64,000 nucleotides of DNA from Acidobacteriota bacterium. Its GTDB lineage: Bacteria; Acidobacteriota; Blastocatellia; Pyrinomonadales; Pyrinomonadaceae. Under the pieces are notes generated by a model that was given only the letters and a program-made list of their open reading frames with translations, made no database searches and had not been told where the DNA came from. The stretch lies in the NCBI GenBank assembly GCA_003222895.1, contig QHXI01000063.1, forward strand, positions 44,452 to 108,451, read 5' to 3'. The number at the start of each line of letters is the position of its first letter. Positions within the stretch are counted from its first letter, which is position 1. Of the stretch, positions 4,343 through 10,267 are shown in pieces. Made by a program: the position numbers and the translations under genes.

Positions 4343-5812
4343 TCAGAAAAGATACTTCACGCCCAGGAGGATGTTCCGATCGGTACGCAGGACCAGCGGC
4401 CCAGTATTGCGCACCACCGGAAACTGGAAGCTGCCTTCGATCACAAATCGCGGCACCGCGGCATATTGAAGTCCCGGTGCGACATAATACTCTGTTGATG
4501 TGCTGCCACTGACCGGTAATCCATTCAGACGGCCAGTTGAACGGTGCACAAAAGTCGTCTCCAGAATCAAGAATAGTTCGTGACCTGGCGCCTGATATTT
4601 TCGCGGCAGCAACACATATTCGGTGTCGGTGCTGACGCGTTTTTCGTGGCCCATGCGAAACCCGGCGCGTTCAGTCCGGAGGATTCCTTCCGCGTTGCCA
4701 CCGAAAATGAATCTGCCGCCCGCTTGGGAAAAGGCAATGTCAATATGCGGCGAAAACCCGCCGTTGATGGGTGTCAATTGCTGCCGCACAAACGCGGGCG
4801 CGTTTACCTGCGCCTGAGTTGGCGCATCCTTATTTCCGGTGGGCAGCTCGAAACCGAATCGGATCGCGGCCTGGCGATCGCCGTAGGTTTTGACTTTGCG
4901 AAAGAAGCGATACTTGGACCAGAGCGTAACGTTTCCTAATCCTGATCCCGATTCCGATCCAGCCGAGACGCTATTCCGAAATGATGTATGCGAAACGGGC
5001 AACTCAAGTTCAACCTGCAAGCGAGGCGACGGAGTGTATGAAATGCTCAGATTCAGCAACTGACGATTAACGTCGAGCGTGCCCAGATGTTGCTTGATTA
5101 GGTAGAGTCGCGGCGTGACGGCCCCGCCTTTGTAAACTGTTAGCCCCGGCGATGTCACGCGGATCGGAGCAGCGGGCGCTGCCGGCTCTGGCACAACCAA
5201 AGGCGTTATCGATTCGAAAGGTTTCGGCGTCGAAGACTTGAAATATGCCGCGGAAATTACATTTAAATTCGGTTCGCGCTTTCTGTCGCTAAAGAAGGCC
5301 TGCTTCAGCGAACGAACCTGAATAACCTCTCTGGCCACGGTTCCTTCGCCAACCGTTTTCCAATCGCCGCTAATCTCGACATGACCTTGCGGTGCGCTCT
5401 CAGCAGTTCCGTCGATATTTGATCCTTCGATCAGGAAACGTTGTCCGGACGATTGATCCTGAATTATCCAGGCTTGGTTCTCACGCGTCAGCGTTCCCTG
5501 CACGGTGATGTTTGCCGCATCAAGAACATAACCAGCCTTCTTCAGCGTTTGCTTCAACGCTGCAAACGAAACCGGTTTGTCAGGCTTTGGCGTAAAGACA
5601 CCGATGCCTTTCTTAATATCAGTTATCTGAATCTCTTTGAGGTTGGGTGCGTAGTCTAGACGGCTCACGGCCTTCTGGATATTGAACACTCAATTTCCAC
5701 AGAGATAACCGGCAATGTGCATCTCGATTTGCTTAACCTGGGCCTGGGAACTCGAAACCATCCCGAAGAGCAGCACCAGACCGAAGCCAATCTGAAAAAT
5801 ATTTCGCCGCAT
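4343..5812 (-). CDS. Putative selenoprotein: signal peptide + HMA-like metal-binding domain (CGN-U) + C-terminal outer-membrane beta-barrel-like domain; UGA at 5690-5692
   Basis: ORF track starts at GTG 5689 directly after an in-frame TGA. Upstream in the same frame: ATG 5812, MRRNIFQIGFGLVLLFGMVSSSQAQVKQIEMHIAGYLCGN[TGA]VFNIQKAVSRLDYAPNLKEIQITD. TGA occupies the second Cys of the HMA CxxC. C-terminus '..ILLGVKYLF' resembles a beta-barrel end. Confidence 0.65.
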
Positions 5813-5853
5813 GTTTGTTCCTTTCGTTATCGCAAGTCTCTTTGTCCGAATCC

Positions 5854-7527
5854 TTAGTGCATCATGTCCTGCTTGGTGTTCGTGCCGTGCATCGTCATGT
5901 CCATCTTGTTAGGACGAATTCGCAGAAACAGCTTCCATGACACTGGATTGTCACCGTAAATACGATCGAGAATCGAAGGTTTCGAATAGAAGGTCAGGTC
6001 ACTGCCAATGGCAAGCGAGACTTTTTCGGTGTTCCAAACGTCGCGCGCGCCGCCGAACGTGTACGCGCCGATCCGAAACGAAGGATGAGGTTGCGTAATT
6101 CCCAACAACGCTCGGTCTGAAGCGCGCAGCAAGTCATCCTTATCCACCAACTCAAGCCGCGTGTAGAAATAATTCTTATCGAGAAAGTTCACCGTCGATT
6201 CGGCGGTGTAGCCGTTCAGGTTTTTAATCTCACCGGGCTCGCTCACGTGATTGCGGCCCCAGACTATGGCTGACGCCCAATTGCCGCGATTGAAAGCGCG
6301 GTTGTATTGAATCGAAGCCGTAGTGCGGCGAATGTCGGCTTGAGGATCTTGCGCTTCCGGACTGCGCAGAAAGCCATGACTAACTTGCATCGCCCAATTC
6401 TTGTTAGGCATGAACCAAAGCCGCGCCGAACGTGAGTTCCACTTGTGTAAATCAAAATTGTAACGATTCTCGTTTGGCTCGCGGCCGTTGAAGATCGATC
6501 CTTCCAACTTGAACCAGCGATAAGTGAAACCGGTCGTTAGCACGCCAAAACTTATATGCGTCGAGTCCTGCAAGTGGTGTGAAAGAGGTGCCGAAGGATT
6601 TTCTGATGCTGACGCGCGATGCATGAAAGCGACCGGGCCGAGCGCGGGCTCGCCGGGATAACCAAAGTACGTGAACCAGGTTCCACGCTCCCCCAGCGGC
6701 AAGGTGTACTGCGCCGATAACTCCATGAAAAGATCGTGCGGATGTTGGCGATCGATTAGCGGCTGGCCCTTGTAAGTCTCGCCGGTTTGAAATAGCAGAG
6801 GCGATCCGCCCGGCGGAAAAGTAAAAGGCTCAGCACTGAACATGCCGCGCAACTGCAGAGTTCCTTTGCCCAGCTTGTGATAAGCCATCGGCATAAACCA
6901 ATTTGCCGATTCAAACTTGGTCGCGCCGCGCGGGCCGCCTTGATGGTTGATGCCGACGATGATGTTGTAATGGAACATCAGGAGCCAATCGCCGGCGACT
7001 TTGGAATGCATGTGCATCGGCGCCGACGAAGGTTGCCACGATGTTCCCGATCCCATCGCGCCCATCGACATCGTGTTCTGGTCACTCGAGCCGACGCGAA
7101 TCTTCATATCGTCACTCGTCATTACCATCAAAGGCCCCAAGTTCGTTGCGCCCATTTTCATTCCGGGCATCTGGCCCATCGGACTGGCAGACGGACTCGC
7201 GGATGGCATCGGCATGTTCATCTGAGTTTGTGGAGAAGCCGACGGCGTCGGCGACGCCGCGGGCATTTGCATGCCAGGCATATCCATTTTCATTTCGGGC
7301 GAAGGCGAGGATGTCGGCGTCGGCGAGCCCGCGGGCATTTTCATACCCGGCATGTTTTCCATCGTCTGCGGGGTGGGTGAAGGAGTTGGCGACGGTTTCG
7401 CTTTTGGCTGTGGCTCCTTTTTCATGCCCGGCATGTGGCCCTGGTGCTGTCCCAAAACCTTGGGCGTCAGACCCGCGAGGAACGCGGTGCAGAATACGAT
7501 CAGTAAGATTCTAAGAGCTTGATTCAT
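5854..7527 (-). CDS. Met/His-rich secreted or outer-membrane protein with MPGMK repeats (probable copper-binding N-terminus)
   Basis: 'MNQALRILLIVFCTAFLAGLTPKVLGQHQGHMPGMKK..NMPGMKMPAG..DMPGMQMPAA..QMPGMKMG', Pro/Ser/Thr-rich linker, large C-terminal domain, ends 'MDMTMHGTNTKQDMMH'. Confidence 0.6.
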   Translation of the reverse strand: MNQALRILLIVFCTAFLAGLTPKVLGQHQGHMPGMKKEPQPKAKPSPTPSPTPQTMENMPGMKMPAGSPTPTSSPSPEMKMDMPGMQMPAASPTPSASPQTQMNMPMPSASPSASPMGQMPGMKMGATNLGPLMVMTSDDMKIRVGSSDQNTMSMGAMGSGTSWQPSSAPMHMHSKVAGDWLLMFHYNIIVGINHQGGPRGATKFESANWFMPMAYHKLGKGTLQLRGMFSAEPFTFPPGGSPLLFQTGETYKGQPLIDRQHPHDLFMELSAQYTLPLGERGTWFTYFGYPGEPALGPVAFMHRASASENPSAPLSHHLQDSTHISFGVLTTGFTYRWFKLEGSIFNGREPNENRYNFDLHKWNSRSARLWFMPNKNWAMQVSHGFLRSPEAQDPQADIRRTTASIQYNRAFNRGNWASAIVWGRNHVSEPGEIKNLNGYTAESTVNFLDKNYFYTRLELVDKDDLLRASDRALLGITQPHPSFRIGAYTFGGARDVWNTEKVSLAIGSDLTFYSKPSILDRIYGDNPVSWKLFLRIRPNKMDMTMHGTNTKQDMMH

Positions 7528-7633
7528 GATTAAATCCTGATGGTCCATTCCCGAAGGCCTACAAAGAAGTGAATGCTGGGCGCGACCTGGACAAGCGTCG
7601 CGCCCTCAAATGAAAGATCGACCTACCGTAGGC

Positions 7634-8056
7634 TTACGGCTTATCCTTCATATCTTTCATGTCCTTCATGTCTTTCATGTTGCATGAATCGCCGCCACAG
7701 CACTCGTGCTTGTCTGATTTCGCGGCGGCATCTTTCTGGGTGCCGTCTTTCATCATCGAACACGAATCACCACAGCAGCAGTCGTGCTTATCAGAAGAAG
7801 ACGTTGCGTGATTCTTCATCGAGTCCTTTTTCATCATCGGGCACGAATCGCCACAGCAACCGCACTCGTGTTTGTCTGACGACGTAACGTGATTCTTCAT
7901 CGCGCCGTCTTTCTTCATTGCACACGAGTCGCTGCAGCAACAGCATGAATCCATCTTCTTATTGCCGGGCTGGCTTGCATTCTGCGCGAAGCCAACGCCG
8001 GAGACTGCGATCATCAGACCGAGCACGAGGCCCGGAATTAGTTTTCGAAATTTCAT
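7634..8056 (-). CDS. Small secreted Cys-rich repeat protein (probable metal binding)
   Basis: Start refined to MKFRKLIPG (ATG 8056, preceded by AGGAG); signal peptide then about four repeats of the type 'SDKHECxCCGDSCxMxKDxxKNH'. Confidence 0.65.
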   Translation of the reverse strand: MKFRKLIPGLVLGLMIAVSGVGFAQNASQPGNKKMDSCCCCSDSCAMKKDGAMKNHVTSSDKHECGCCGDSCPMMKKDSMKNHATSSSDKHDCCCGDSCSMMKDGTQKDAAAKSDKHECCGGDSCNMKDMKDMKDMKDKP

Positions 8057-9474: not shown

Positions 9475-9584
9475 AAAGCAGATGAAGCAGATGAAGCAGA
9501 TGTCAGAAGTCAGATATCAGATATCAGATGTTAGTAGGTTAGCCAAATCCGTAACTGGTTACAAACCGCAGCGGCTCTGACCTT

Positions 9585-9729
9585 TTCATTCACACCGCGC
9601 TTCAGCGCGGTGACAACCACTGCTACAAGAATCTATCAGCCGTTTCAACGGCTTACTTTAGAACCGTTGAAACGGTTTCACTGATCCGTTACACCTGCGA
9701 TCACCTCGCTGAAGCGAGGTGTGAATGAA
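9585..9729. repeat. MITE-like nested palindrome between the GrdB-like and peroxiredoxin genes
   Basis: 12-bp terminal inverted repeats TTCATTCACACC (9585-9596)/GGTGTGAATGAA (9718-9729) enclosing several short hairpins (CGCGCTTCAGCGCG, GCCGTTTCAACGGC, ACCGTTGAAACGGT, CCTCGCTGAAGCGAGG). Confidence 0.75.
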
Positions 9730-9802
9730 ATTGGACTCAAACAAAAAAGTCAGATGCGAACACACCTCCGACATCTGACCTCTGCTCTCTGACTGCCGTC
9801 TT

Positions 9803-10267
9803 TTACAACTTCCGCAGCACCTCGAACAAATCCTCGTTGTCCGGCTGATCCGCTATGTTGTGAATATCTTTGTAAGCGAGCTTGCCTTGCTTATCGACGA
9901 TGAAGAGCGCGCGCTCAGAGATGCCATCGTTGGCACGATAAGCGCCGTACGCTTTCGCCACTTCGCCTTTGGGATGAAAGTCGCTGAGAAGATCGTAGGA
10001 AAGTCCGCCGAGGCTCTTGGCCCAAGCGGCGTTGCAGGGAACACTGTCAACTGAAATGCCCAGAACCTGAGCGTGATAACCCGCGAAGCGTTCGAGATCG
10101 GCTTCGTACGCGGGCATCTGCGCCGTTCAGACCGGTGTCCAGGCCAGCGGATAAAACGCGATGACTACATTTTTCTTGCCCCGAAAATCCGAGAGCCTCA
10201 CCTGCTTGTCTTTCTCGAGGTGACTTTTCAATTCGAAGTCCGGAGCCATGCTTCCAACTTCAGGCAT
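9803..10267 (-). CDS. Peroxiredoxin (AhpE/BCP type) with UGA (Sec) at the peroxidatic position (10127-10129)
   Basis: ATG 10267 preceded by [53 protein letters not shown][TGA][35 protein letters not shown]..; canonical motif is TPVCTxQ. Confidence 0.85.

Follow-up and report, generated by a model that had tools for sequence, protein, structure and literature searches.

The window analysed here, a stretch of 64,000 nucleotides from contig QHXI01000063.1 of a soil Acidobacteriota bacterium from the family Pyrinomonadaceae, carries three minus-strand genes that each contain one internal in-frame TGA: an HMA-domain beta-barrel gene, a PrdB/GrdB-like gene, and a peroxiredoxin gene. As judged from sequence comparisons, it is highly probable, taking both statements jointly, that all three encode selenoproteins in which UGA is read as selenocysteine (Sec, U) by the organism's own SelA, SelB, SelC, and SelD, and that they form two functional units. 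The Sec reading is supported because the UGA is conserved at cysteine sites, the genome holds a complete Sec system, and the RNA is constrained within the coding regions. The genes and their TGA codons are as follows.

4343-5812, minus strand: predicted selenoprotein gene 1 (489 amino acids, stop TGA), comprising a signal peptide, an HMA domain (CGNU), a small beta domain, and a predicted outer-membrane beta-barrel (domain searches, structure model, orthologs)
5690-5692, minus strand: TGA (Sec41) of the HMA protein, at the second Cys of its CxxC motif
8740-9474, minus strand: predicted selenoprotein gene 2 (244 amino acids, stop TGA), PrdB/GrdB-like, with GGUPNVC (profile match, orthologs)
9049-9051, minus strand: TGA (Sec142) of the PrdB-like protein (sequence, orthologs)
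9803-10267, minus strand: predicted selenoprotein gene 3 (154 amino acids), a peroxiredoxin with PxxxTxxU (PF00578 match, orthologs)
10127-10129, minus strand: TGA (Sec47) of the peroxiredoxin, at the peroxidatic Cys position (sequence, orthologs)

As the original prediction had proposed, the TGAs (5692-5690, 9051-9049, and 10129-10127) all fall on functional Cys positions of their families, namely residue 41 in CGNU, residue 142 in GGUPNVC, and residue 47 in PLAWTPVU. The truncation of open reading frames (ORFs) at the TGA that it described is also seen in databases, where the ORFs of the HMA gene begin after the TGA. Alignment of homologs, suggested earlier as a check for alternation between Cys and Sec, yielded relatives with TGA or Cys at these sites and none with another stop codon or a frameshift. 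Orthologs with 53-94% protein identity have either a single TGA at the identical residue or Cys, and an independently assembled soil-metagenome contig (L149), 99% identical to window positions 10167-2583, contains all three TGAs in unchanged order; the three codons are therefore not a matter of chance. For the HMA protein, TGA occupies the identical residue in 11 loci, the sole exception among full-length orthologs being a Cys (CGYC) in genome G045, and the site is U in all 95 further loci (15 from GTDB, several of them genomes already in the first ortholog set, and 80 from metagenomes; one, L202, was judged by eye, the codon following U there being ATG). The PrdB-like protein has TGA in 22 loci and Cys in G037, G088, and G100, while the peroxiredoxin has TGA in 23 loci and Cys in G033, G037, G012, and the more distant G001. 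Both proteins are thus Cys versions in G037, a genome that possesses SelB and tRNA-Sec. The terminal stop of the HMA and PrdB-like genes is also TGA, so this codon still serves as an ordinary stop in the genome. When the window was scanned by codon usage for further readthrough genes, the peroxiredoxin came out on top and none of the other candidates was convincing, although the filters missed the HMA and PrdB-like genes and the scan is not exhaustive.

A genome-wide search for selA, selB, selC, and selD, likewise proposed beforehand, recovered all four from the draft genome (4.8 Mb, 96% complete). The tRNA-Sec (SelC) scores 67 bits and has the anticodon UCA, and the proteins clear their cut-offs: SelB with 365 bits (cut-off 242), SelA with 541 (268), and SelD with 357 (125), the last having a TGA of its own at the known Sec position (MVSCSGU). 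Across 61 genomes, comprising the source and 60 relatives from its genus, family, and class, tRNA-Sec passes the curated cut-off in 60 and SelB in 57.

Sec insertion at each UGA would be helped by a hairpin just downstream, resembling a Sec insertion sequence (SECIS); since such a decoding hairpin would lie within the coding region, constrained synonymous codons are expected immediately after the UGA. Ten-codon windows of synonymous identity peak there in all three genes: the top of 340 windows starts at U+5 in the HMA gene (0.90 against a mean of 0.47), the top of 202 at U+1 in the PrdB-like gene (0.73 against 0.49), and the top of 142 at U+11 in the peroxiredoxin gene (0.70 against 0.51). 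When codons U+1 to U+13 are compared as a fixed block with random draws, the constraint is reached in fewer than 1 in 20,000 draws for HMA and at 0.0004 for PrdB; the same block shows no effect in the peroxiredoxin, whose constrained stretch lies further down. The candidate structures are listed below.

5658-5676, minus strand: SECIS-like hairpin of the HMA gene, AGA-A-GGC-CGUGA-GCC-G-UCU, loop 20 nt past the UGA (folding, codon conservation)
9017-9035, minus strand: SECIS-like hairpin of the PrdB-like gene, ACCGCAC-GGUC-GU(C)GCGGU, loop GGUC 20 nt past the UGA (folding, alignment)
10084-10106, minus strand: first hairpin past the peroxiredoxin UGA, candidate SECIS (folding, ortholog alignment)
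10056-10074, minus strand: second hairpin past the peroxiredoxin UGA, 8 bp, with a loop that begins with G (ortholog alignment)

In the HMA gene, the codons CAG AAG GCC GTG AGC CGT are nearly invariant over 94 loci, the Arg codon being CGT in all 94, and the next Leu codon varies freely. The PrdB hairpin is paired in 99.4% of alignment cells and shows no covariation since its columns are invariant. The first peroxiredoxin hairpin has a spacing that fits the published model and a somewhat larger loop. The second spans 56-74 nt past the UGA with one mismatch in the window copy, and exhibits compensatory changes, from GC to AU in 7 of 23 sequences; for the two together, 12 cells are changed on both sides compared with 5.4 in shuffles.

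These data also bear on two other ways of explaining the TGAs. If they were ordinary stops, the genes would be pseudogenes or would be expressed in two pieces, with translation re-starting at a GTG after the stop, and such a GTG does follow the HMA TGA in 80 of 94 loci and is used as a start by gene finders. Yet the codon is GTC or ATC in the other 14, a re-started barrel would be deprived of its signal peptide, the sequence on either side of the TGA is conserved across genera, synonymous constraint peaks past the TGA, and the Cys versions contain no stop, which leaves this explanation very improbable. Still more remote is a general reassignment or misreading of TGA in the genome, to Trp or Cys for instance. 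Nothing in its favour was found: the HMA and PrdB-like genes terminate in TGA, only functional-Cys sites are affected, and the genome has a complete Sec system that includes tRNA-Sec(UCA). The pseudogene, re-start, and code-reassignment readings were accordingly rejected on the terminal TGA stops, the TGA/Cys pattern of the orthologs, and the 94-95 HMA loci.

Among the three, the HMA-barrel protein is the least familiar. Of the 121 genomes of the order, 20 have the family, which is represented in 14 of 29 genera; among the 8000 candidates scored in a protein search, 1971 were homologs. In each of the best 120 of these 1971, the sequence starts at the TGA or immediately past it, on the following codon or on the GTG in the hairpin loop; these database entries consequently lack the signal peptide and the metal site. 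NCBIfam offers no model for the protein, the 119-family selenoprotein table of a 2026 review (PMC13188914) does not contain it, and a literature search, with subscription papers and preprints outside its scope, found no HMA/outer-membrane selenoprotein; the family is thus apparently undescribed, its novelty being likely rather than certain. Overall, there is a good probability that it represents a new family of selenoproteins, namely outer-membrane channels that carry a Sec metal-binding site, are abundant in soil Acidobacteriota, nearly always contain Sec, and have been overlooked since gene callers cut away their signal peptide and metal site.

The domain assignments behind this proposal come from several sources. 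The N-terminus is signal-peptide-like, and the following segment matches PF00403 (HMA) over positions 3-61 of 62 with 23.7 bits in the window copy and 25.3 in an ortholog (cut-off 24.8; E values 6e-5 and 2e-5), including the CxxC site with U as the second Cys; the domain was detected with the N-terminal piece only and was missed by the whole-protein Pfam scan. For the barrel, a medium-confidence model searched with Foldseek gave the FapF amyloid secretion channel and the COG4313 channel (PF13557) as its best structural matches (E 1e-9 to 7e-8, TM 0.74 to target), and PF13557 is precomputed for several homologs. These channels, whose type is defined by a 12-strand barrel fold, have neither an HMA domain nor Sec, and share only about 13% sequence identity with the window barrel. 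The nearest listed selenoproteins are the MerP/MerT mercury proteins and a ZntA-type ATPase (PMC2398784, PMC13188914), which resemble the window protein in placing Sec in a metal-handling protein within a C/SxxU or UxxC motif; they are small periplasmic or inner-membrane proteins or ATPases, whereas here HMA is joined to a predicted outer-membrane barrel.

The immediate neighbours of the HMA-barrel gene provide further hints of its role, beginning with the gene directly downstream.

3526-4339, minus strand: TlpA-like thioredoxin plus cupredoxin domain (Pfam scan, neighbourhood comparison)

In most of the relatives represented by a genome, gene 1 is followed by a TlpA-like gene. Upstream, a small secreted CCKKA/LCCNLNC protein is found in 44 of 95 loci, and a MerR-type regulator, a cation efflux transporter, or a chromate transporter lies nearby in a few. 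We infer that the protein is most likely an outer-membrane selenoprotein that binds soft metals and has a partner of the thioredoxin type. It would reside in the outer membrane with CGNU facing the periplasm, where this motif may bind copper, silver, mercury, or another soft metal ion; the TlpA-like thioredoxin may keep CGNU reduced, and the modelled barrel might carry or gate the metal as a channel. A metal role as such is favoured to a modest degree, and the metal, its direction, and the partner are guesses from the neighbours. The protein could instead be a redox (selenol/disulfide) protein or a sensor that carries no metal, given that CxxU is also a redox motif and that a TlpA-like thioredoxin is a frequent neighbour. 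This option appears rather doubtful: the N-terminal domain matches HMA, and the surroundings are of a metal type, with Met-rich and Cys-rich secreted proteins and a cupredoxin in addition to the regulator and transporters of some loci.

Some details of these neighbours are worth recording separately. A long ORF at window positions 521-4339 (minus strand) fuses the TlpA/cupredoxin protein to a type I restriction subunit; contig L149 has about 64 extra bases, including a stop, between the two parts, and the fusion therefore reflects a deletion or an assembly difference. The small upstream protein (MPDCCKKA...LCCNLNCSEPG...SPKYIQHLALLI) is conserved, occurring at L170:140-523 and in 43 further loci. 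Upstream of one HMA-barrel gene lies a member of the CYCXC (seleno)protein family (NF041379; L135:4720-5265), whose ORF is free of TGA.

About 20 relatives, drawn from several families, have the peroxiredoxin and PrdB-like genes next to each other with the order unchanged, and the adjacency extends beyond the class to three further genomes of the phylum. The window peroxiredoxin matches PF00578 with 125.9 bits and has the active site PLAWTPVU. It shares the fold and the PxxxTxxU motif with Sec peroxiredoxins of PF00578, from which it differs in being paired with a PrdB-like gene, and with 71 of 270 bits it does not reach the cut-off for PrxU, the NCBIfam equivalog. The PrdB-like protein is homologous over nearly its whole length to PrdB (TIGR04483) and GrdB (PF07355), with which it has the UxxC motif in common. 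Its score of 184.6 bits lies below the curated TIGR04483 cut-off of 300, and identification as the D-proline reductase PrdB was rejected on that ground. A search of the genome did not find PrdA, the control set of that search being silent as well, and a PDB structure search with a model of the PrdB-like protein returned no matches. Because of the sub-cut-off score and the peroxiredoxin neighbour, the protein is probably not a proline reductase. In the predicted reaction, Sec of the peroxiredoxin attacks peroxide and so removes it, with the UPxxC protein as a plausible partner in the redox cycle; the pairing of the genes is an observation, and the partnership may follow from it.

Related elements were noted beside this pair. 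In the gap between the two genes (9475-9800), there are several inverted repeats, and short CTGATAT / CTTCATCTG repeats follow one another in a run. Another selenoprotein candidate is a second type of peroxiredoxin, which carries FTGGUT and has a hairpin of its own (G000:C110:40960-41373); many relatives possess it. A paralogous PrdB-like family of about 35% identity, with TPVUP, PAUPIC, or PAUPIU motifs and one or two TGAs, is also common in relatives (L059-L065, for example G010:C9:22098-22742).

How the HMA-barrel gene relates to this pair is best considered against the remaining genes of the cluster.

5854-7548, minus strand: Met-rich secreted protein with PGMKM-type repeats (no Pfam or NCBIfam match)
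7634-8137, minus strand: Cys-rich secreted protein with CCCC / CGDSC repeats (sequence, neighbourhood comparison)
8156-8743, minus strand: small protein containing CCK...CC...YLLDCSFLI; when aligned, it resembles the CCKKA/LCCNLNC protein, the BLAST similarity not being significant
10422-10847, plus strand: Fur/PerR-family regulator, divergent neighbour (Pfam/NCBIfam)
10923-11492, plus strand: Cys-type peroxiredoxin, VCPTE (Pfam/NCBIfam)
11565-12041, plus strand: thioredoxin-like protein (Pfam)

The original prediction regarded the three genes as one Sec island and a single Sec-dependent redox/metal module. That description suits the conserved peroxiredoxin/PrdB-like pair but not the HMA gene, which is a separate unit in most relatives. 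It stands beside the pair solely in this species and in a relative represented by contig L150 (about 78% identical and reaching into the PrdB gene), it is located on other contigs in the other relatives that have it, and it is absent from the six same-genus genomes searched. One unit would therefore be best drawn as the TxxU peroxiredoxin with the UPxxC PrdB-like protein, a putative peroxide-removing selenoenzyme and its probable redox partner, with a PerR-type regulator beside them, and the other as the HMA-barrel gene, a putative separate metal module set side by side with it in this species. A dedicated Sec-dependent metal/peroxide pathway uniting all three genes gains some appeal from the gene order, which is the same in the independent 99%-identical contig and, over the part that it covers starting at the PrdB end, in the 78%-identical one, and from the Met-rich, Cys-rich, and small secreted genes, which adjoin the pair in several members of the genus. 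Such a pathway is nonetheless unlikely, since the pair occurs in G004, G005, and G006 with no HMA gene and other relatives keep that gene on other contigs. With regard to how the two units were joined, the secreted genes adjoining the pair in genus members suggest a route.

Several observations weigh against the reading of three selenoproteins in two units, or against parts of it. The strongest conserved hairpin of the peroxiredoxin has its loop at 60 nt past the UGA, outside the usual bacterial SECIS spacing of 16-37 nt (PMC13188914), which makes the first hairpin the more conventional candidate there. Members of the pair do not always switch together, as G088 and G100 have a Sec peroxiredoxin but a Cys PrdB, and G045 has a Sec peroxiredoxin and no PrdB match. 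For the HMA unit, the TlpA gene is directly downstream in just 28 of 65 judgeable metagenome loci, and the barrel model is of low confidence in places (mean pLDDT 66, the barrel part being medium to low).

Clusters of selenoprotein genes with metal or redox themes are also known from the SAO and Tso multi-selenoprotein operons (PMC13188914), from which the present cluster differs in that its three genes match no Sao or Tso NCBIfam model. Elsewhere in the window, three matches to the Acido-Lenti-1 RNA (RF01687) lie at 22559-22606, 22719-22766, and 58777-58824; two of the three are on opposite strands, with about 110 bases between them.

According to the prevailing view, selenoproteins seldom occur in aerobes and are most numerous in anaerobic lineages (PMC13188914); here, the Sec machinery is found in nearly every examined genome of an abundant soil class. 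For the HMA-barrel family, neither location nor role can be guessed from the shortened database entries, and the family offers a direct test of why Sec would be favoured at an extracytoplasmic metal site.

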